Shown piece after piece: positions 1,328 through 51,853 of a stretch of DNA of 64,000 bases. The stretch is from Naumannella cuiyingiana (GTDB lineage: Bacteria > Actinomycetota > Actinomycetes > Propionibacteriales > Propionibacteriaceae): positions 868,001-932,000 of the forward strand of contig NZ_JACBZS010000001.1 of the NCBI RefSeq assembly GCF_013408305.1, in the 5' to 3' direction. A program made the translations under genes and the position numbers. The notes under the pieces were generated by a model. That model did not search any database and was not told the DNA's origin. It saw only the letters and a list, made by a program, of their open reading frames with translations. The stretch's first letter is position 1; every line of letters begins with the position of its first letter.

Positions 1328-2821
1328 ATGAAGCCGGATCCCCGCGAGGTCGTCAAACGGGCGCAACAGGTGCTCGCCGACGCGCTCGCCGGCGGCGCGG
1401 TGAGCGCCGACGAGCCGACCGAGCGGCTGGCGCAACTGGAGGGTTGGCTCGCGCTGCAGGCCCGACTCGAGGCGGTGATCGCCGCCGGCGTCCGGGCGGT
1501 CGACGAGGCGGGCGACACGATGCTCGCCCACGGCGTCTCGACGCGGACCTGGCTGGCGCAGACCGGGCGGATGACCGCGGGGCAGGCTGCGGGGTTGATC
1601 AAGGACGCCCACCGCCTCGGTCGATTCGCCGGGGTCGCCGAGGCGCTCGCGGAGGCCCGGGTCGGCCCGGCGCAGGCGGGCGCCATCACCGACACCCTGG
1701 ACCGGCTGCCCGCCGGGCTGTCGCCGGCCGAGCTGGTCGCCGGCGAGGCGACCATGATCGACCACGCGGCGACCCAGCGTTTCGACCCGGCCATGTTGCG
1801 CCGGCTCGGCAACCATCTGGTGGAGATCATCGCCCCCGACGTCGCCGACGCGCACGACAGCGCCGCGTTGGAGCGCGCGGAGCGGCGGGCCCAGCAGGCA
1901 CGCTCGCTCACGTTCGCCGACGACGGGCACGGCTCGATCAGGTTCCGCGGACGGTTGCCGCAACTCGACGGCGAGGCGCTGGTAGCCGTGGTCGACGCGT
2001 ACGCCACGCGCGACGCCTCCGTCGCGGCGCGCGATCCGCTCGCGGCCGAGCTCAGCTCACCCGAGCAACGGCGAGCGGACGGGCTGGCCGCGATGGTCCA
2101 GCACATCCAGGGCTGCGCCACCGCGCCGGGTGCCGGCGGCGATCGGCCGCGCCTGGTCGTGACCATCGCCCACGACGAGCTGCTGGCGCAGGTCCGGCAC
2201 GAGGTCGATGCACACGGTGTCGATGCGCACAGGGTCGATGCGCACAGGGTCGATGCGCACAGGGTCGATGCGCACAGGGTCGATGCGCACGGGGTCGATG
2301 CGCACGGGGTCGATGATCACAGGATCGGCGGCACGCGGGCGGAGTCGCTGCGCACCGGGGCCCGGATCTCGGCGGCCGCGCTACGCCGGCTCGCGTGCGA
2401 CTGCGATCTGCTGCCGGTGGTGCTCGGCGGCGCGGGTCAGCCTCTTGATGTCGGCCGCGAGCACCGGCTCGTCACCGGACCTGTCCGCGCGGCCCTCACG
2501 GTGCGCGACCGCGGCTGCGTGATGCCCGGCTGCGACCGGCCGCCGGAGCGCTGCGAGGCCCACCACATCGTTCCCTGGCAGGCCGGCGGGCCCACCAGCC
2601 TGGCCAACCTGGTGCTGCTGTGCCGACACCACCACGGCCTGATCGAGCCACGCCCGCAGGCCCCGCCGGGCGAGCAGTGGGTCGTGCGGATCGGCACCGA
2701 CGGTTTACCGGAACTACTGCCGCCGACTCGCGTCGACGCCGCGCGCCGACCGCTCCGGCACCCCCGGTTCCGTCCACGTGCCTTGGGTCGTAGGCGTGCG
2801 TCCGAATCGGACGACCCGTGA
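1328..2821 (+). CDS. DUF222 (13E12-repeat) HNH endonuclease-like protein with internal pentapeptide repeat
   Basis: A 497-aa member of the actinobacterial DUF222-HNH family. The first ~270 residues are the helical DUF222 region. The HNH nuclease fold follows near the C-terminus: CVMPGCDRPPERCEAHHIVPW with the paired His at 412-413, then LANLVLLCRHHHGLIE. Between the two domains sits an eight-unit VDAH(R/G) repeat (residues 293-332) that I do not know from the family. The start is chosen from a TAGGCT -10 box 7 nt before ATG 1328. An earlier in-frame ATG at 1298 has its GGAGGGG too close to act as a ribosome site. The biological role of the family is unsettled. Nuclease activity is inferred from the intact HNH residues. 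Confidence 0.85.
   Translation: MKPDPREVVKRAQQVLADALAGGAVSADEPTERLAQLEGWLALQARLEAVIAAGVRAVDEAGDTMLAHGVSTRTWLAQTGRMTAGQAAGLIKDAHRLGRFAGVAEALAEARVGPAQAGAITDTLDRLPAGLSPAELVAGEATMIDHAATQRFDPAMLRRLGNHLVEIIAPDVADAHDSAALERAERRAQQARSLTFADDGHGSIRFRGRLPQLDGEALVAVVDAYATRDASVAARDPLAAELSSPEQRRADGLAAMVQHIQGCATAPGAGGDRPRLVVTIAHDELLAQVRHEVDAHGVDAHRVDAHRVDAHRVDAHRVDAHGVDAHGVDDHRIGGTRAESLRTGARISAAALRRLACDCDLLPVVLGGAGQPLDVGREHRLVTGPVRAALTVRDRGCVMPGCDRPPERCEAHHIVPWQAGGPTSLANLVLLCRHHHGLIEPRPQAPPGEQWVVRIGTDGLPELLPPTRVDAARRPLRHPRFRPRALGRRRASESDDP
2204..2323 (+). repeat. Eight 15-bp in-frame tandem repeats (VDAHR)
   Basis: Units begin at 2204, 2219, 2234, 2249, 2264, 2279, 2294 and 2309. The commonest is GTCGATGCGCACAGG. 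Translation gives VDAHG, four VDAHR, two VDAHG and VDDHR. The near-identity of the central units suggests recent slippage or unequal crossover. It sits exactly between the DUF222 and HNH domains. Confidence 0.9.
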
Positions 2822-3162
2822 GAGTTCCCGGATCTCCCTGCGTGAGCCGGTGTCGGAGGTCCCGGCCCGCGGTCGATGTTCCGGCCGAACCACCTGCCCT
2901 ATCCGAGGGAATCGTCGGCACCCTGCGGCAGACGCTGCCCGGACTGGCGCGGGCGGCGTCCGATCGCCGCTACGACGCCGGCCAGGCCCGGCTCGACATG
3001 TGCCTCGCCTTCCTCGACAAGGTCGTCGTCGCCAGCACGGACCGCGGCATCGACCCGGCGCTGCCGGCCCTCGTCCGGGCCGCGTCCGCCCGCGCCGCCG
3101 ACACCCTCCCCGGCGACACCGACTGGGCCTGCGTGTTCGAGGGACTCCTCCCGCGCGGATGA
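2818..3162 (+). CDS. Small hypothetical protein overlapping the HNH gene
   Basis: A 114-aa reading frame I do not recognise. It starts with GTG overlapping the HNH stop (GTGA), so it may be translationally coupled. The first ~25 residues are Arg/Pro-rich and unconvincing. From about residue 30 the sequence looks like a real helical domain: GIVGTLRQTLPGLARAAS, DAGQARLDMCLAFLDKVV, then ALPALVRAASARAADTL and an ending DWACVFEGLLPRG. A GTG at 2842 is an alternative start. No motif indicates a function. Codon third positions are G/C-rich as in neighbouring genes. Confidence 0.5.
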   Translation: MRVPGSPCVSRCRRSRPAVDVPAEPPALSEGIVGTLRQTLPGLARAASDRRYDAGQARLDMCLAFLDKVVVASTDRGIDPALPALVRAASARAADTLPGDTDWACVFEGLLPRG

Positions 3163-3180
3163 TCGGCCTCCACCCGATCG

Positions 3181-3233
3181 CTTCCGCAGATCCGGCCGCT
3201 CTCCACGCGGGTTGGCGGCATCACCTGCGGAAG
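3181..3233. terminator. Inverted repeat between convergent genes
   Basis: CTTCCGCAG (3181-3189) and CTGCGGAAG (3225-3233) are perfect 9-nt complements separated by 35 nt, in the gap between the small plus-strand gene and the minus-strand MFS gene. The loop is long for a terminator, so this is only a candidate. Confidence 0.25.
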
Positions 3234-3252
3234 GGATGCTGAAGGATCCCGC

Positions 3253-4443
3253 TCAGCCGCGCAGCGCGACCTTTGCCCCGGCCCCGACGGCGAGCGCCAG
3301 ACCGGCCAGCGCGGCCAGCCCGACCCCGACGGTGCTGACCGCCGCGAGCCCGCCGACCAGCAGCGGGCCGCCGGCATCGCCCAGCTCGCGGCCCAGCTCG
3401 GCGCTGCCCATCGTCCGGCCCATCCGATCCTCCGGGGTCGCGGCGGCGATCGCCGCGAATCCCAGCGGGGTGACCACGCCGATGCCGATGCCGAGCAGCA
3501 CCGCGGCGAGGTACAGCGCGATCGCGGCCGCGACGGTCGGCAGCGGCACCGCCACCACCACCAGCCCGGCCGCCACCAACGCCAGCCCGATGATCATCCC
3601 GGTGCCCGTCGCCAGCCGGCCCGCATCGCGGCGCGCGCCGGCCCACGGCTGCACGGCGGTCAGCGTCAGCGCGAGCACCGTCACCGCGGCCACCGCGCCG
3701 AACTCCCCCAGGCCCAGCCGCGTGCCGAGCAGCGGCAGGAAGCCCACCCCGACGCCGAGCGCCCCGGTCGCCACCGCCATCGCCGCGACCGGAGCCAGGA
3801 ACGATCGCTGGGCGACCTCGCGGGCAAGATCGAGAACCGTCGCGCGCGAGCGCGGCAGCACACGCAGCGGGGGCACCGCCGCCACCACCCATCCGGCGAC
3901 GGCGAGGGCGAGCACCGCGAGCGCGGCGTACAGCGCCGGCAGGCCGCCGGCCCAGACCAGCGCCGCCCCCAGGATCGGGCCGAAGGCGTACCCCAGACCC
4001 TTCCAGGAGCCGTACCGGCCGAAGCGCCGACCCGTGGTCGCGCCGCCGCCGATCCGCGCCACCCCCGCCGAGGCCGCCGGCGAGAATGCCGCGGCGGCCA
4101 TCCCCTGCCCGAAGCGCGCCAGCGTCAGCCCGACCACCCCGGCCGCGAACACCCCGACCGCCGACGCGGCCGCGAAGGCCAGCAGACCGCCGATGATCAC
4201 GGGCCGGACGCCGACCCGATCGCTGAGCGCGCCGAAGACCGGCTTCAGCACCACCTCGGCGAGGTCGTACACGGCGAGCATCAGCCCGAAGCCCAACAAC
4301 CCGACCCCGAGCTCGCCCGACTCCACCCCGAGCGCCGCGGCCACGCCATGCGCGCCGAATGCGGTCGTGAACCCGGCCGCATACAGCGGGGCGAGCCCGT
4401 TGCGCGGCGGTGCATCCGGCGATTCGTGGCGGCCACGGCGCAC
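3253..4443 (-). CDS. MFS transporter
   Basis: A 396-aa major facilitator protein with about 12 hydrophobic segments. The cytoplasmic loop after helix 2 reads GALSDRVGVRPVI, a form of the GxxxDRxGRR/K signature, and a second-half equivalent GARRDAGRLAT is present. Typical of small drug or metabolite exporters, but no substrate can be named. The likely start is GTG 4443. A TAGCCT element abuts that codon, so the true start could be slightly downstream. It stands alone, convergent with the preceding small gene, with 31 bp between its start and the stop of the next minus-strand gene, which probably precedes it on the same transcript. Confidence 0.75.
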   Translation of the reverse strand: MRRGRHESPDAPPRNGLAPLYAAGFTTAFGAHGVAAALGVESGELGVGLLGFGLMLAVYDLAEVVLKPVFGALSDRVGVRPVIIGGLLAFAAASAVGVFAAGVVGLTLARFGQGMAAAAFSPAASAGVARIGGGATTGRRFGRYGSWKGLGYAFGPILGAALVWAGGLPALYAALAVLALAVAGWVVAAVPPLRVLPRSRATVLDLAREVAQRSFLAPVAAMAVATGALGVGVGFLPLLGTRLGLGEFGAVAAVTVLALTLTAVQPWAGARRDAGRLATGTGMIIGLALVAAGLVVVAVPLPTVAAAIALYLAAVLLGIGIGVVTPLGFAAIAAATPEDRMGRTMGSAELGRELGDAGGPLLVGGLAAVSTVGVGLAALAGLALAVGAGAKVALRG

Positions 4444-4474
4444 AGGCTAGGCCACCGCCGGACCGGCGACCCGC

Positions 4475-5056
4475 TCAGCGCGACCGGCGCCCCATGAAGT
4501 TCGCCAACCGCTCGGTCAGACCGGCAGCGGCCGCGGGCGGGACCGGCTCGTCGAACGGCAAGTCCTCACGCCCGCCGGGCAGCACCCGCTGCGCGCCCGC
4601 GAGGGCACCCTCGGCCAGATCGGCATCGGCCTCGGCGTCCTGCCCGGTCGCGACCGCGAGATCCCAGCCGTGCGTCAGCGTCTCGCCCACGAAGGCGCTG
4701 ATCATCACCGCCGCCGGCACCCGCCCGAACGGGGCTTCCACGATCGTGGCGAGCGAGGCGTCGTCGGCCCAGGCGGCGCTCGCCTGCTCGACCAGCCGGG
4801 CGTGGCCGCCGGCCAGGTCGTCGGCATCGGCCGGCACGGACGAGGGGAGGTCGACGGCGGCGTGACCCTGCGCCATCCCGATGGTCTTGCCCACCACCGC
4901 GTACAGATGCTCGATCAGCGCCCGCACGTCGTAGCCCGAACACGGCGTCGGGTCGCTGAGCTGGCCGGGCTCGACGTTGCCGAGCAGTTCGGTCACCCAG
5001 GCCCGGGCCCGGTTCAGGTTGTCGCGGTTGTCCACCAGTTGCTGTGTCTCGTTCAT
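4475..5056 (-). CDS. TIGR03086-like DinB-fold metal-binding protein (mycothiol-dependent maleylpyruvate isomerase family)
   Basis: A 193-aa four-helix DinB/MDMPI-like protein. The N-terminal half has the family features LLGNVEPGQLSDPTPCSGYDVRALIEHLYAVVG (shown here only to illustrate the P-T-PC-x-x-[WY]-x-V-x-x-L-x-x-H pattern with its metal-ligand His). The second half carries GETLTHGWDLAVATGQ, the HxWDLAxATG motif. Members use mycothiol as thiol cofactor or act in its metabolism. The actual reaction here is unknown. The start ATG 5056 gives MNETQQL. ATG 5068 is an in-frame alternative. It is divergent from the WYL regulator, 63 bp away, suggesting that regulator controls it. Confidence 0.75.
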   Translation of the reverse strand: MNETQQLVDNRDNLNRARAWVTELLGNVEPGQLSDPTPCSGYDVRALIEHLYAVVGKTIGMAQGHAAVDLPSSVPADADDLAGGHARLVEQASAAWADDASLATIVEAPFGRVPAAVMISAFVGETLTHGWDLAVATGQDAEADADLAEGALAGAQRVLPGGREDLPFDEPVPPAAAAGLTERLANFMGRRSR

Positions 5057-5070
5057 GTCCACGAGCATTC

Positions 5071-5082
5071 CGGGTATACCCG
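5071..5082. promoter_or_regulatory. 12-bp perfect palindrome in a divergent promoter region
   Basis: CGGGTATACCCG is a perfect palindrome in the gap between the DinB-fold gene (minus) and the WYL regulator (plus). Its position makes it a candidate operator for the WYL protein. No experimental consensus is claimed. Confidence 0.35.
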
Positions 5083-5119
5083 ACATCCTGTGTCGTGATT
5101 TCTGTGCTGAACTTGGGCC

Positions 5120-6127
5120 ATGCGCGCGGACCGTCTGCTCAGGCTGGTCGGCCTGCTGCGCCGGCACGGCAAGTTGACCGCCGCGCAGCTCGCGGATCGC
5201 CTCGAGGTCACCGAACGCACCGTGCTCCGTGACATCGAGGCGCTGTCGGCCTCGGGCGTACCGGTCTATGCCGAACGCGGACGGCACGGCGGGTACGCCC
5301 TGCTGCCCGGCTATCGCCCCGGCGTCGAGGATCTCACCCCCGACGAGGCACGCGCGCTCTTCCTGGCCGGCGGCGAGGGGGCGGCGTCGGCGCTCGGCGT
5401 TGAGGCCGAGATGACCTCGGCGCTGCGCAAGCTCGCCGCCCGGCTGCCGGAGGAGACCGACCGCGAGCTCGGCCGGCTGCAGGAGTTGATCATCGTCGAC
5501 GCCGAGGGCTTCGCCGGCGCGCCGCCGCGGTTGGCCGAGCTGCCCACCGTCCAGCTCGCCGTCCTGGAGCGCCGGCGTCTCGTCCTCGACTACACGCCGA
5601 TGGACCCGTCGCGGCGCGGCCGGCGTACCGTCGATCCGTACGGCCTGGTGCTCGCCGGCAACACCTGGTATCTGCTCGCCGCGCACCGCGGGCAGGTGAA
5701 GTCGTTCCGAGTCGAGCGGATCAACCGGGCCACCCTGCTCCCCCAGCGTGCCGCCCGACCCGACGGCATCGACCTGCGGGCGCTGTGGCGGCGGCTGCGC
5801 GAGAGCTACCGCGACCGGCCGGGGATCCGGATCGAGGTGGCCACCCGCCCGGACCGGGTCGCGCTGATCCGCCGGCTGATGGCGATGAACCTGACCGCGC
5901 CGATCGAGGAGACCACCCGCGGCGGGCGGACCGTGTTGATCATGCGCGTGCACGGGCTGCGCGAGGCGGTCGCCGTGCTGCTGGGCCTGGGCGACGGGGT
6001 CGAGGCGCTCGCCCCGCCCGCCCTGCGCGCGATGATGATCAGGATCGCCCGGGAGGCGACCGCGGTCTATCTGGCCGAGGATCCGGCCGGCAGCACCTCG
6101 GCCAGCAGCGGCTCGGCCGTCAGGTAG
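5120..6127 (+). CDS. HTH/WYL-domain transcriptional regulator
   Basis: A 335-aa regulator. Residues 1-60 form a DeoR-like winged helix-turn-helix (LLRRHGKLTAAQLADRLEV followed by TERTVLRDIEALSASGVPV and the wing ERGRHGGYALLPGY). The WYL domain lies at about 140-220 with LDYTPMDPSRRGRRTVDPYGLVLAGNTWYLLA and SFRVERI. A C-terminal WCX extension follows. WYL proteins sense small ligands or nucleic acids and often control a divergent gene, here the DinB-fold gene. Its last 61 bp overlap the 3' end of the convergent GH4 gene. Confidence 0.88.
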   Translation: MRADRLLRLVGLLRRHGKLTAAQLADRLEVTERTVLRDIEALSASGVPVYAERGRHGGYALLPGYRPGVEDLTPDEARALFLAGGEGAASALGVEAEMTSALRKLAARLPEETDRELGRLQELIIVDAEGFAGAPPRLAELPTVQLAVLERRRLVLDYTPMDPSRRGRRTVDPYGLVLAGNTWYLLAAHRGQVKSFRVERINRATLLPQRAARPDGIDLRALWRRLRESYRDRPGIRIEVATRPDRVALIRRLMAMNLTAPIEETTRGGRTVLIMRVHGLREAVAVLLGLGDGVEALAPPALRAMMIRIAREATAVYLAEDPAGSTSASSGSAVR

Positions 6128-7434
6128 CCGTCGAGCAGTCGGCGACCGAGCACCGGGGAGTCCACCAGCGGATGCAGCGCGAAGCCCTCCCAGGCCCGCT
6201 CCCGGCTACCGGTCAGGGCCGCCTCGGCGATCAGCCGCTCCGACCCGCGCAGCCGCGCCATCATCCCGAGCTGCGCCAGATCCGGCGCCGCCACCGGCTG
6301 CGGATGCACACCGGCCGAGTCGACGACACACGGCACCTCGACCACAAGATCATCGGGCAGCGCGGCGACCAGTCGTTGATCACCGGCACGGTTGCCGACA
6401 TCCAGGATCATCCGCTGCTCGGGCCCGCCGGCCAGCGCCGCCATCAACCGCATGGCGACCTCCTGGTAGCCGCCGCCGGCGATATCGGCTGCCTCGCGTT
6501 CCTCGTCGCGCGTCTCGGCCATGTAGCTCTCCTCACGCTCGCGCAGGACCCGCCGCCAGTCGGCCAGCCGATCCCTGCCGGCGCCGGCATAGAAGGCGTC
6601 CTGCTGCCGGACCAGGAACTCGCCGCGGGTCTCCCCCGCCTGCTCGATCCGGCGCCGCGCCTCGTCGGTGAAGAAGTAGTAGAAGAGGTACTCGTTCGGG
6701 ATCGACCCGAGCGCGCGCACCCAGTCGAAGCCGAACAGCCGAGCCTCCTCGATCCGCTCCAGCGCGTGATCATCGGCGAGCACGCCCGGCAGCCGATCGG
6801 TGCCGTCGACGGTGAACGAGCGCAGCCAGCCGAGGTGGTTGAGCCCGAGATAGTCATAACCGATTCGTCCCGCATCGGCGTCGAGATCAAGATCGAGCAC
6901 GCGGGCGAGCCGGCGGACCAGACCGATCGGGGTGTCGCAGATCCCGACGGCGCGCTCGCCCAGCACCCCGCGCATCACCTCGGTGACGATGCCTGCCGGA
7001 TTGGTGAAGTTGATCACCCAGGCACGCGGTGCGATCTCGGCGACCGCCTCGGCGATCCGTCGGGCGGGACCGATGGTGCGCAGCGCGTACGCCAGCCCGC
7101 CCGGGCCGATCGTCTCCTGCCCCAGCAGGCCGAGGTCGAGCGCGACCCGCTCGTCCACCGTGCGCGCGTGTGCGCCACCGACTCGGATCGCGCTGAACAC
7201 GAAGTCCGCGCCGCGCAGGGCGTCGGCCAGGTCGGTCGTGGTCCGGTACGCCGGGGCACTGCGCCCGTAGCCGTCGGCCAGCTCGCCCACGACGGCTCCG
7301 ATGGCCGCCAGCCGGCCCGGGTCGGAATCATGCAGGACGATCTCGTCGACCGCGACGCCGCCGGCGCGCGCCGCCGCCGCCTCGTAGACGAGCGGTACGC
7401 GGAATCCGCCCCCGCCCAGGATCACCAGCCTCAT
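6067..7434 (-). CDS. GH4-family 6-phospho-beta-glucosidase/alpha-glycosidase
   Basis: A 455-aa family 4 glycoside hydrolase, which cleaves glycosides (usually 6-phosphorylated) by an NAD+ and Mn2+ dependent oxidation-elimination mechanism. Seen: N-terminal Rossmann strand LVILGGGGFRVPLV, the NAD loop IRVGG, NFTNPAGIVTE, the metal-ligand Cys in VGICDTPIG and the metal-ligand His in LGLNHLGW. These features fit the 6-phospho-beta-glucosidase branch better than the alpha-galactosidase (MelA) branch. The substrate is unproven. ATG 7434 overlaps the stop of the upstream DeoR gene by 4 bp, so regulator and enzyme share a transcript divergent from the sugar ABC importer. Confidence 0.88.
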   Translation of the reverse strand: MRLVILGGGGFRVPLVYEAAAARAGGVAVDEIVLHDSDPGRLAAIGAVVGELADGYGRSAPAYRTTTDLADALRGADFVFSAIRVGGAHARTVDERVALDLGLLGQETIGPGGLAYALRTIGPARRIAEAVAEIAPRAWVINFTNPAGIVTEVMRGVLGERAVGICDTPIGLVRRLARVLDLDLDADAGRIGYDYLGLNHLGWLRSFTVDGTDRLPGVLADDHALERIEEARLFGFDWVRALGSIPNEYLFYYFFTDEARRRIEQAGETRGEFLVRQQDAFYAGAGRDRLADWRRVLREREESYMAETRDEEREAADIAGGGYQEVAMRLMAALAGGPEQRMILDVGNRAGDQRLVAALPDDLVVEVPCVVDSAGVHPQPVAAPDLAQLGMMARLRGSERLIAEAALTGSRERAWEGFALHPLVDSPVLGRRLLDGYLTAEPLLAEVLPAGSSAR

Positions 7435-49282: not shown

Positions 49283-50965
49283 TCAGCCGCGGTCGATGCC
49301 CGCGAGGAAACCGTGCACCAGCGGGACGACCGATGACCCCTCGCCGCTGGCGGCCGCCACCCGCTTCATCGAGCCGGCGCGCACGTCGCCCACGGCGAAC
49401 ACCCCGGCCGCGGTGGTGGCCAGCGAAGCGGGCGGTACGCCGTCGCGCCAGTAGCCCTTCGGCACGTCCCGCCCGGTGAGCACGAAGCCGTGCTCGTCCA
49501 GCAGGATCTCCGGAGGCAGCCAGCCGCAGTGCGGGTTGGCGCCGAGCAGCAGGAACAGCCCGCCCGCGGCGACCTTGGACACCGCATCGGCCGCGTTGTC
49601 GCGGATCATCAGCCACTCCAGCCGGCCGTTCCCGCCACCGTCGATCACCTCGGACTCGCCGCGCACGGTGATCCGCGCGTTCGCCACGATCTCGCGGATC
49701 AGGTAGTCCGACATGGTTGCCGTCAGGTCGGGGCGGCGGATCACGATGGTCACCGAGCGGGCGTACCTCGACAGGTGCATCGCCGCCTGACCGGCGGAAT
49801 TGCCACCACCGACGACATGGACATCGAGCCCCGCCAGGTCGCGCGCCGCCGAGGTCGCCGCGCCGTAGTGCACGCCGAGACCGACCAGGTCCTCCAGGGC
49901 CGGTACGCCGAGCCGGCGATACTTCACCCCGGTGGCGATGATCACGCTGCGCGCGCGAATCTCGCCGGCCGGGGTCTGCAGCACGTGCCCGTTGCCGGCG
50001 GGATCGCCGAGCCGCAGCTCCTGCACCGGCCGCGCCGCCTGCAGCTTCGCGCCGAACCGCAGCGCCTGGAACCTCGCGCGCTGGGTCAGCCGCATCCCCG
50101 AGATGCCGTTCGGGAAGCCGAGATAGTTCCTGATCATGGAACTCGATCCGGCCTGGCCACCGATCGCATCGGCGTCGATCACGACCGTCTCCAACCCCTC
50201 CGATGCGCCGTAGACCGCCGCACCGAGCCCGGCGGGACCGCCGCCGACGATGGCGACATCGAAGACCCGGTCGCCGAGCGTCTCGGGGTTGTAGATCGCC
50301 GCGCCGATCTCGGCCATCGTCGGCCGAACCATCGGCGGGGCATCATGCATCCGCACCACCGGGTACGCCTGATCGGGCCCGCCGGCATCCTCCCCCAGCT
50401 CGTCCAGCACCTCGCGCCCCGGCGGGCTTTCCGGCGACCACATCCCGTGCGGCATGCCGAGCCGGTCGAGGAAGTCGTGGATCCGGGCGGCGTCGGGATT
50501 GTTGGCCGGCGCGACCACCCGCAGGGCCTCGACCACGGGGCGCCCGGAACTCCAGCCCCAGTCCGACAACAGATCGGTCAACGCGGCGTGCAACTCCTCA
50601 TCGCGCGGCCCGCGCGGCGCGACGCCGGCCAGATCGAGACGCCCCTCCGACATCGCCGTCCGCAACTGCCCGATCGTGGCCAGGTAGTCCCCGACGGTGG
50701 TGAACACGACCCGCTTGCTGGTCGGGCTGAGCGCCTGCAGGCAGTCCATGGTGATCAACCCGGAAGCGTCGGGCAGCGTGCTCTCCACGATCAGCATCGC
50801 GATCGGCACCCCGCCCGCGAGCAGCCGTTGCACCAGCGGCAGCGAGCTGGCGAGACTGTCCGCCGATTCGACGCGGTACTCCCCGGCGTACCGCTGCAGG
50901 GCCTGCCGCAGCGGCTCCGACGACGTATCGGCGACCAGGACGATCGCGGGATCCGGCTTCTTCAC
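49283..50965 (-). CDS. Degenerate receiver fused to a thioredoxin-reductase-like flavoprotein
   Basis: A 560-aa fusion. Residues 1-125 resemble a response-regulator receiver (AIVLVADTSSEPLRQAL, then AMLIVESTLPDASGL), but the phosphoacceptor position carries Glu in IVESTLPD. A thioredoxin-fold-like linker region with PVVEALRVVAPANNPDAARIHDFL follows. From about 236 the reductase part has FDVAIVGGGPAGLGAAVYGASEGL, IGGQAGSSSMIRNYLGFP and a GVFAVGDVRAGSMKRVAAASGEGS ending. The CxxC of thioredoxin reductase is replaced by AATSAARD. So FAD and NAD(P)H binding are kept but disulphide reduction is not expected. The partner is unknown. GTG 50965 has a leaderless promoter. Confidence 0.82.
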   Translation of the reverse strand: MKKPDPAIVLVADTSSEPLRQALQRYAGEYRVESADSLASSLPLVQRLLAGGVPIAMLIVESTLPDASGLITMDCLQALSPTSKRVVFTTVGDYLATIGQLRTAMSEGRLDLAGVAPRGPRDEELHAALTDLLSDWGWSSGRPVVEALRVVAPANNPDAARIHDFLDRLGMPHGMWSPESPPGREVLDELGEDAGGPDQAYPVVRMHDAPPMVRPTMAEIGAAIYNPETLGDRVFDVAIVGGGPAGLGAAVYGASEGLETVVIDADAIGGQAGSSSMIRNYLGFPNGISGMRLTQRARFQALRFGAKLQAARPVQELRLGDPAGNGHVLQTPAGEIRARSVIIATGVKYRRLGVPALEDLVGLGVHYGAATSAARDLAGLDVHVVGGGNSAGQAAMHLSRYARSVTIVIRRPDLTATMSDYLIREIVANARITVRGESEVIDGGGNGRLEWLMIRDNAADAVSKVAAGGLFLLLGANPHCGWLPPEILLDEHGFVLTGRDVPKGYWRDGVPPASLATTAAGVFAVGDVRAGSMKRVAAASGEGSSVVPLVHGFLAGIDRG

Positions 50966-50971
50966 CTGCTC

Positions 50972-50977
50972 AGCCTA
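50972..50977 (-). promoter_or_regulatory. -10 box of the receiver-flavoprotein gene (leaderless)
   Basis: Minus strand TAGGCT, 6 nt, then GTG 50965. This confirms the GTG start. Confidence 0.6.
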
Positions 50978-50999: not shown

Positions 51000-51030
51000 T
51001 TGACTCTCCCCCGCGGGGAGGGTTCAGACT
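51000..51030 (+). promoter_or_regulatory. MerR/BmrR-type promoter with 19-bp spacer and central dyad
   Basis: TTGACT (51000-51005) and CAGACT (51025-51030) are separated by 19 bp holding the dyad CTCCCC-CGC-GGGGAG (51006-51020). Long spacers with this type of CTCCCC/GGGGAG dyad are the hallmark of BmrR-like MerR regulation. GTG 51038 follows 7 nt after the -10, so the transcript is leaderless and autoregulated. Confidence 0.75.
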
Positions 51031-51037
51031 CGGCACC

Positions 51038-51853
51038 GTGTTGATCCCGATCGGCGAGTTCTCCAAGATGACGCACCTGAGCGTGCGGCAGCTGCGCAAC
51101 TACCACGAGGCCGGGCTGCTGCAGCCGGCCGCGGTCGATCCGGTCACCGGCTACCGCAGCTATGCGCTGGACCAGGTGGAGCGGGCGCGGACGATCCGAA
51201 TGCTGCGCGCGGTCGAGATGCCGGTGGCGATGGTCGCCGAGACGCTGGACGGCGATCGGACGGCGGCCATCGAGCGGCACCTCGCCGAGCTGGAGCGGAC
51301 CGTGCGCGATCACGGGGCAGCGATCGCGGAGCTGCGCGAGGAGCTCGCCGGTACGCCCGCGCCCGCCGTCGAGTTGCGCGCGGCGCCCGCACAGCGGGTG
51401 CTGGCGGCACGGGCGCGGGTCGCGCGCGACGACATCGACGCCTGGTGCGCGGCGACCTATCCGGAGCTGACGGAGCGGGCCGCGCGCGCCGGCGCGTGGC
51501 CGTCCGGGCCGGCCGGCGCGGACTACGCCGAACCGTTCTTCGCCGACAATGCGGGCGCGGTGACCGCGTGGCTGCCGGTCGCCGAGCCGACGCGCGCGGG
51601 CCGTGCCGCGACCCAGGAGCTGCCCGGCGGACGGTACGCCGTGGCGGTGCACCGCGGCGCGTACAGCTTCGACCGGACGTACGCCGCGCTCGGCCGCGCC
51701 CTGCACGACGACTCCCACCCGCTCGGCGTCGAGCCGGCGGCCGGCGCGGTCCGCGAGATCTATCTCGTCGGTCCGGACAAGACCCACGACCCCACCCAAT
51801 GGATCACCGAGGTGTGCTGGCCCGTCCGGCCCCGCACCGACGAAAGGAAATGA
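51038..51853 (+). CDS. BmrR-like MerR regulator with GyrI-like effector domain
   Basis: A 271-aa MerR activator. Residues 1-75 are the winged helix (LIPIGEFSKMTHLSVRQLRNYHEAGLLQPA, then DPVTGYRSYALDQVERARTIRMLRAVEMP), a coiled coil follows (AAIERHLAELERTVRDHGAAIAELREEL), and residues 115-268 form a GyrI/SOUL-like ligand pocket (ELPGGRYAVAVHRGAYSFDRTYAALGRAL, REIYLVGPDKTHDPTQWITEVCWPV). Such proteins bind lipophilic drugs. GTG 51038 is fixed by the promoter and the canonical MLIPIGEFSKM start. The VOC gene begins 2 bp after its stop, so it is the likely regulated partner. Confidence 0.88.
   Translation: MLIPIGEFSKMTHLSVRQLRNYHEAGLLQPAAVDPVTGYRSYALDQVERARTIRMLRAVEMPVAMVAETLDGDRTAAIERHLAELERTVRDHGAAIAELREELAGTPAPAVELRAAPAQRVLAARARVARDDIDAWCAATYPELTERAARAGAWPSGPAGADYAEPFFADNAGAVTAWLPVAEPTRAGRAATQELPGGRYAVAVHRGAYSFDRTYAALGRALHDDSHPLGVEPAAGAVREIYLVGPDKTHDPTQWITEVCWPVRPRTDERK

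Follow-up and report, generated by a model that had tools for sequence, protein, structure and literature searches.

A gene on the minus strand of a 64,000-nucleotide stretch of the Naumannella cuiyingiana genome (the window) encodes a 560-residue protein that joins a receiver-like domain to a domain with the fold of thioredoxin reductase (TrxR). We propose that this protein is a thiol-independent regulator, using NAD(P)H and flavin adenine dinucleotide (FAD), of proteins with a UBP zinc-finger tail, and that its logic resembles that of KefF and KefC. We infer the link to UBP-tailed proteins from relatives, mostly from one subclade, and we would give this reading a probability of roughly 0.43.

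The window protein is a member of a widespread family of receiver-fused, TrxR-fold flavoproteins that lack the CxxC motif. Canonical members have, in their gene neighbourhood, a histidine kinase with a cyclic nucleotide monophosphate (cNMP)-binding domain, by which the receiver is presumably phosphorylated; proteins with a UBP zinc finger recur as a third component. On the window protein's branch, the kinase is no longer nearby and the receiver is now a pseudo-receiver, to which phosphate is probably not transferred. The flavin site was altered there too: Glu373 is gone, Cys377 is gone from most members, and Cys480 and Arg411 are fixed or nearly so. The protein would bind NAD(P)H and FAD but would not perform thiol chemistry via CxxC. 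Its role would instead be regulatory: responding to redox state or to nucleotides, it would partner UBP-zinc-finger proteins, above all a UBP-tailed Na+/H+ antiporter of the CPA1 family, and its cofactor state would set antiport activity.

Domain architecture and absent active-site residues

The open reading frame (ORF) starts with GTG (Table 1). An earlier note on this DNA had described a receiver fused to a TrxR-like domain, with Glu61 in the phosphoacceptor column, no CxxC, and intact FAD and NAD(P)H motifs, and we find the same. The only Pfam matches are to Pyr_redox_2 (E = 4e-26, residues 235-543) and to related Rossmann FAD families. There was no match to Response_reg at E ≤ 0.01; the receiver was recognized from an AlphaFold model and from alignment with relatives that do match that family (such as locus L041, E = 1.2e-14). 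The model (from 46 sequences) has a mean predicted local distance difference test score (pLDDT) of 91.2, with no residue below 50, and a predicted template modelling score (pTM) of 0.88. It comprises a (beta-alpha)5 receiver (residues 1-120), a small alpha/beta domain (residues 148-225), and the reductase core (from residue 234).

The middle domain, which the earlier note did not mention, has a glutaredoxin fold and spans residues ~141-229. Residues 141-229 folded alone (43 sequences) gave a pLDDT of 90.8, and the structural matches were glutaredoxins, NrdH, and the N-terminal domains of glutathione transferases. The best Foldseek match was a glutaredoxin (E = 2.4e-3; none was at or below 0.001), and after realignment the top glutaredoxin/NrdH-type row had a VIA Z of 9.7 and a root-mean-square deviation (rmsd) of 2.1 over 72 residues. 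When the middle domains of five relatives were compared with Pfam Glutaredoxin, two had matches that fall just under the curated cut-off (L093, 2.2e-4; L071, 2.6e-4), a third gave 0.092, and two had no match; the window protein's own middle domain had none either. A Cys within residues 146-170 occurs in just 4 of the 91 family members. The window protein has none in this domain, and so no CxxC or CxxS active site.

The reductase core has the TrxR fold (VIA Z up to 35.5, in a comparison over residues 229-560). Its CxxC position reads A-A-T-S, as compared to C-A-T-C in the TrxB of the same genome. The earlier note had supposed that this protein lost its CxxC, which is not what we find: there is no Cys in either CxxC column of any of the 91 aligned family members (window protein included), which come from Actinomycetota, Bacteroidota, Cyanobacteriota, Chloroflexota, Acidobacteriota, and others. 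Thus, the absence of CxxC is shared by the sampled family and is no mark of the window protein.

In a tree of the reductase domain (built by a quick method, with the CxxC columns removed), the window protein lies in a 32-row actinobacterial clade (SH-aLRT support of 100). This 92-row tree and the residue, motif, and receiver-kinase counts leave out L006 (from the same genome as L023), L010 (from the genome of L026), and L015 (whose gene is broken over two frames). The relatives used were the best 80 of at least 588, and the outside-clade counts concern those nearest to the clade. Members of the wider family occur in Actinomycetota, Bacteroidota, Cyanobacteriota, and others; of 156 genomes from the window's order, 97 have at least one. 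In a second tree of 50 rows (31 clade rows from the first tree, 6 new loci, and 13 others), the window protein groups with G004, which is from the same genus. Within the clade, the FAD motif is present in 31 of 32 members and the NAD(P) motif in all 32.

The clade also differs from its relatives at the flavin site. Glu373 is present in 58 of 59 proteins outside the clade and in none of the 32 inside (Ala in the window protein). This position follows the second Cys of CxxC and corresponds to the acid-base Asp in E. coli TrxR. Cys377 is found in 46/59 proteins outside and 3/32 inside (Leu in the window protein), and Arg411 in 9/59 outside and 32/32 inside. Finally, 30 of 32 clade members have Cys480, which none of the 59 others have (58 have Thr).

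The pattern at Cys480 might suggest a single-cysteine redox enzyme or sensor, in which Cys480 is oxidized (to a sulfenate or a mixed disulphide) and its state is read via the flavin. That the outside family holds another single Cys, at position 377, would also fit. However, two clade members lack Cys480, and one of these is in an antiporter operon (L012/L103, with Thr). We consider a single-cysteine enzyme or sensor unlikely. The only other Cys in the window protein is C75, which is found in 2/32 clade members. The earlier note had pointed to a conserved Cys elsewhere in the protein as the kind of result that would count against it. Cys480 is such a conserved Cys, but there is no conserved pair. 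A relocated disulphide was rejected for the window protein, as it has only C75 and C480.

It is very improbable that the protein is a genuine thioredoxin-type disulphide reductase with relocated cysteines. The fold is that of TrxR, and a same-genus homologue (L004) has CVGC at residues 375-378, just beyond the position of CxxC, but no Cys is found at these residues in the window protein. The NCBIfam model for TrxR (TIGR01292) gives it 177.9 bits, against a cut-off of 343.45. The thioredoxin-binding motifs of TrxR are GR/KG and FF (PMC9025218); at these positions, the window protein has GLG and RD, while the genome's own TrxB has GKG and FF. That TrxB, with its CATC motif, is an ordinary one and is encoded beside a thioredoxin with WCTPC. 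(A third TrxR-fold gene in the genome is, by resemblance, of the ferredoxin-NADP reductase type.) The absence of CxxC and the presence of a separate TrxB and thioredoxin agree with the earlier note's view that this is not a thioredoxin reductase, and the protein's sequence also makes it a candidate for the flavin-based sensor or regulator that was suggested there.

A more serious alternative, though one that we still find rather doubtful, is that the protein is a stand-alone NAD(P)H-dependent flavoenzyme, such as an oxidase, a quinone reductase, or a ferredoxin/flavodoxin reductase, with inert scaffolds for N-terminal domains, and that the antiporter operon described below reflects shared stress regulation. 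Its FAD and NAD(P) motifs are intact, and it has structural neighbours among the ferredoxin/flavodoxin NADP reductases (8c16, Z = 29.1; 6gar, Z = 26.6), which work without a CxxC. Also, the model fits 5mh4, which is titled as the FR (flavin-reducing) conformation, with an rmsd of 2.0. The structures titled flavin-oxidizing fit worse (5mjk, rmsd 7.3; 5w4c, rmsd 5.5), and the titles of the other rows are silent on this. A flavin-reducing-like shape is what one might expect where there is no CxxC that could swing towards the flavin, although this is a property of one prediction.

On the other hand, the receiver and the glutaredoxin fold persist across the clade and seem to be constrained: for the same-genus protein pair, dN/dS by NG86 was 0.36 in the receiver, 0.48 in the middle domain, and 0.23 in the reductase. 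As all three values are below 0.5 (in this one pair), all three domains are under purifying selection, and the pseudo-receiver is being kept rather than decaying. The linkage of the wider family to a kinase and to UBP proteins, which indicates signalling, is a second point against a stand-alone enzyme. Overall, the sequence depicts three modules without their usual catalytic residues (wholly so for the glutaredoxin and the reductase, partly so for the receiver) and with intact cofactor motifs. The missing signatures are common to the relatives and the same-genus pair is under purifying selection, so they are not a chance event.

The receiver and its kinase

The five active-site columns of the receiver read A12, D13, E61, T89, and A116 in the window protein. 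Glu61, in the sequence IVESTLPD, aligns with the phosphoacceptor Asp of the canonical relatives. The second metal-binding acid (D13) and the Thr (T89) are kept, but the first acid, the Asp, and the Lys are gone, so 2 of the 5 canonical letters remain. To judge from the model and the alignment, this is a pseudo-receiver: the fold is present without these residues.

The clade as a whole shows the same trend. The first metal-binding acid is found in 0 of 32 clade members (as compared to 51/59 outside, where 5 of the others are gaps), the Lys in 0 of 32 (54/59 outside), and the Thr in 3 of 32 (50/59 outside). The second acid position is Asp or Glu in 5/32 clade members. The phosphoacceptor column has Glu in 24 members and Asp in 8, with at least 6 changes between Asp and Glu on the tree.

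The earlier note had suggested that Glu61 can mimic permanent phosphorylation; the receiver would then keep the protein constitutively on. Glu is the commonest substitution in receivers that lack the Asp, and it can mimic phosphorylation in many response regulators (PMC12632262); it is also the prevalent residue in the clade, and the window protein retains T89 and D13. However, this mimicry is proposed to act via the conserved Thr and Lys (PMC12632262), and the Lys is absent throughout the clade and the Thr from all but three members. Furthermore, four of the six antiporter-linked clade members in the tree have Asp. Hence T89 lends the idea a little support, while the lost Lys, the rarity of the Thr, and the repeated interchange of Asp and Glu speak against it. 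We find it improbable and, given the loss of the Lys and the first acid and the Asp/Glu interchange, we dropped it as the main account. As either Asp or Glu can occur in this column while the Lys is always missing, the sequences speak more for a structural role of the acid. The earlier note's other suggestion, that the receiver is an interaction module, is plausible.

The neighbourhoods of the named relatives (HMM searches with flanks of ~5 kb, shorter at some contig ends) suggest what was lost along with the receiver's residues. A full-length cNMP-binding histidine kinase is encoded near 40 of 56 outside-clade relatives and 0 of 24 inside the clade. (Pfam confirmed the kinase domains for L041 and L128.) Across these 80 loci, 40 have both an intact receiver (with Asp and Lys) and the kinase, 11 have the intact receiver only, 29 have neither, and none has the kinase with a degenerate receiver (P = 4e-13, Fisher's exact test; these and the co-occurrence statistics below ignore the relatedness of the genomes). 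Of all our arguments that the branch's receiver is no longer phosphorylated by the cNMP-kinase, this loss of both together is the strongest. In the genome of N. cuiyingiana, we found no full-length cNMP-histidine kinase, only matches to the ATPase domain.

Outside the clade, the same five rows lost both the Asp and the Lys. In these relatives (L067, L072, L045, L082, and L091), the Asp is replaced by Gly or Ala, and there is no kinase in the flanking DNA, although one flank of L045 and one of L072 are nearly absent from the sequence. At three canonical loci (L093, L077, and L084), two or three copies of the cNMP-histidine kinase surround one receiver-TrxR gene.

UBP zinc fingers and a Na+/H+ antiporter

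A UBP zinc finger is encoded near 24 of 56 outside-clade relatives and 2 of 24 inside. Within the window's taxonomic family, UBP is present in 13/13 genomes that have a member of the flavoprotein family and in 9/44 that do not (P = 2e-7), and within the order, in 94/97 and 12/59, respectively.

At locus L036, which represents an operon type found in Nocardioides, the gene directly upstream of the flavoprotein gene encodes a Na+/H+ exchanger that ends in the UBP finger (a tail of ~80 residues). This CPA1 antiporter matched Na_H_Exchanger and, at its C terminus, zf-UBP in Pfam in all three proteins tested, including the one from N. cuiyingiana. The antiporter-UBP protein is encoded by 49 of the 55 genomes that carry the window protein's branch (full-length in 23/27 genomes of the class sample, plus 26/28 further genomes), where E-value or motif, rather than a tree, placed most of the genomes with G handles in the branch. 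Of the 55, 11 have the antiporter directly upstream on the same strand, with a match-to-match gap of 19-152 bp (G082, G092, G350, G397, G036, and, outside any tree, G162, G163, G164, G165, G178, and G180). At L101, 13 bp separate the antiporter's stop codon from the flavoprotein's ATG. In G033 (L104, 5531-7070), which is also outside any tree and was assigned to the branch in the same way, the antiporter-UBP gene is convergent and looks intact, whereas that of the flavoprotein is split between two frames.

In the class sample, the full antiporter is present in 23/27 genomes with the branch versus 22/318 without it (P = 1e-19, Fisher's exact test), and the same comparison by genus gives 9/10 versus 16/117 (P = 1e-6). 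Also, at L128 (G207, 1334-6439), a canonical pair of cNMP-kinase and receiver-TrxR genes is divergent from a UBP-tailed Na+/H+ antiporter, which is a second, independent link between the flavoprotein family and the antiporter.

Several observations weigh against our proposal. First, N. cuiyingiana's own antiporter-UBP gene is unlinked: it lies at C1:1873315-1875153, ~0.95 Mb away, and nothing else in the genome matches strongly. The 64-kb window contains neither a kinase nor a UBP gene. The same-genus relative G004 has no antiporter, and its only UBP is in a short frame; in all, 6 of the 55 branch genomes lack the antiporter. Second, the operon members that could be placed form one subclade (6 rows, SH-aLRT support of 95) that excludes the window protein, so the operon may have arisen in one event and been kept over several taxonomic families; only L128 provides a link to the antiporter that is independent of this subclade. 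Third, the class sample includes 22 genomes in which the full antiporter-UBP is encoded but no close homologue of the flavoprotein is, and among 20 of their antiporter loci that we examined, a family member was adjacent at just one. Fourth, the co-occurrence with UBP is partly genome background, as we also see a correlation with UBP for SIR2, a gene of the window that served as a control (P = 1.6e-4). (Within the SIR2-positive genomes, the link between UBP and the flavoprotein family stays, at 12/12 versus 9/26, P = 1.1e-4.) Fifth, the window receiver, with D13 and T89, is less degraded than most of the clade.

The earlier note had also proposed looking for conserved partner genes. The relatives do have them (the kinase, UBP, and the antiporter), but there are none beside the window gene. 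As its own antiporter gene is unlinked, the partner of the window protein has to be deduced from its relatives.

We also considered, more tentatively, how such a regulator might have arisen. A two-component output protein may have been turned into a regulatory subunit of an antiporter: the receiver would have degenerated, the kinase would have been dropped, the flavin site would have changed, and part of the branch would have come to share an operon with the UBP-tailed antiporter, whose UBP finger would be the docking site. The flavoprotein would then be a gauge of NAD(P)H or redox state for pH and Na+ homeostasis, and prokaryotic UBP fingers would serve as adaptors. We view this history as rather unlikely.

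Some other UBP genes are worth recording. N. cuiyingiana has a lone UBP zinc-finger gene at C1:753553 (locus L109, C1:747000-761000). It is flanked by genes for an ABC-F-type ATPase and a GMC-type oxidoreductase (named by resemblance), and its product resembles, by eye, the UBP protein of a Streptomyces kinase operon. In the genus g30, there are up to five family members per genome (G150, G075, G101, and others), and in several of these genomes a long-frame UBP gene lies ~30-40 kb from one family member.

Gene features, known systems, and meaning

The coordinates of the features within the window are in Table 1. Scans found no sigma-70 promoter pair and no terminator.

Table 1. Features of the flavoprotein gene, in window coordinates
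Feature	Position	Strand	Basis
Gene for the 560-residue pseudo-receiver / glutaredoxin-fold / CxxC-less TrxR-like flavoprotein	49283..50965	-	ORF, Pfam, AlphaFold model, trees
Pseudo-receiver domain, residues 1-125, (beta-alpha)5	50591..50965	-	AlphaFold 2 (AF2) model and alignment
Glu61 at the phosphoacceptor position	50783..50785	-	Alignment
Glutaredoxin-fold domain without Cys, residues 141-229	50279..50545	-	AF2 and Foldseek/VIA
TrxR-like FAD/NAD(P)H domain, residues 234-556	49298..50266	-	Pfam Pyr_redox_2 and VIA
FAD-binding motif GGGPAG, residues 241-246	50228..50245	-	Motif/alignment
AATS in place of the TrxR CxxC, residues 369-372	49850..49861	-	Alignment
NAD(P)-binding motif GGGNSA, residues 386-391	49793..49810	-	Motif/alignment
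Cys480, specific to the clade	49526..49528	-	Alignment
TAGGCT hexamer ending 6 nt before the GTG, possible -10 element of a leaderless promoter	50972..50977	-	By eye only

A divergent gene for a MerR-family regulator lies in the region 51000-51853 on the plus strand (reading from ~51038 to 51853). Upstream of it, by eye, are TTGACT, a 19-bp spacer that contains the dyad CTCCCCCGCGGGGAG, and CAGACT, which is presumably the long-spacer promoter shape that is typical of MerR control. We rejected this neighbour as a conserved partner because it had no tblastn match at E ≤ 1e-5 in 33 clade loci (with flanks of 1.5 or 5 kb at most, and with L006 and L010 repeating L023 and L026), while the positive control matched itself.

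Fusions of a receiver to TrxR are already in print, as a "Mycobacterium-like combination" (PMC5847659). The window protein resembles these fusions in its domain order, in being homologous from end to end (it is 36-55% identical to the other 45 proteins in the alignment), and in the absence of CxxC from the aligned rows. It is unlike the canonical ones in having a degenerate receiver, no kinase nearby, Ala and Leu in place of Glu373 and Cys377, and Cys480 and Arg411; also, some of its relatives have the antiporter-UBP operon. Among the papers listed from the open-licence literature of PubMed Central, we found none that gives the family a function, and none that describes its CxxC-less state, the glutaredoxin-fold middle domain, the trio with the kinase and UBP, the UBP-tailed antiporter, or the antiporter operon.

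Other known proteins share parts of this arrangement. The C-terminal domain has the fold and the FAD and NAD(P)H motifs of low-Mr TrxB, but the protein lacks the CxxC and the thioredoxin-binding motifs and has two extra N-terminal domains. As in AhpF, a thioredoxin-fold unit precedes a TrxR-like core, and the first Foldseek match was to AhpF (4xvg, 547 columns), but there was no overall superposition (rmsd 26.9, TM score 0.39). AhpF has catalytic Cys in its core and two more in its N-terminal extension (PMC8945050), whereas the window protein has no catalytic Cys and has a receiver as well. Like the pseudo-receivers that have been described from bacteria (PMC12632262), the window receiver has the fold without the phosphotransfer residues and has no kinase nearby. 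Unlike them, it is fused to a flavoprotein, and the word "thioredoxin" is absent from the main text of that paper.

The closest analogy for our proposal is the K+/H+ antiporter KefC, whose cytosolic domain is bound by KefF, an oxidoreductase subunit that is encoded in the antiporter's operon (PMC10224563). Similarly, some relatives of the window protein have an oxidoreductase and an antiporter in one operon, and the cytosolic tail of the transporter is the docking site that we propose. The parts differ: we have a three-domain TrxR-like protein rather than the ~20-kDa KefF, and Na_H_Exchanger with a UBP finger rather than a KTN domain, and regulation here is something that we would predict by analogy. 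PtsN and YcgO provide a precedent, in which a soluble signalling protein regulates a CPA1 antiporter (PMC11808508).

If our proposal is correct, then the family is poorly served by the thioredoxin-reductase name. (The RefSeq-type name of these fusions is "fused response regulator/thioredoxin-disulfide reductase.") It would also mean that a protein can keep its FAD/NAD(P)H core and yet have none of the signatures of a receiver, a glutaredoxin, and a reductase. The UBP zinc finger, otherwise associated chiefly with ubiquitin, would have a role in bacteria that is tied to this flavoprotein. Finally, the antiporter operon gives a testable prediction of the way in which redox state could set ion exchange.

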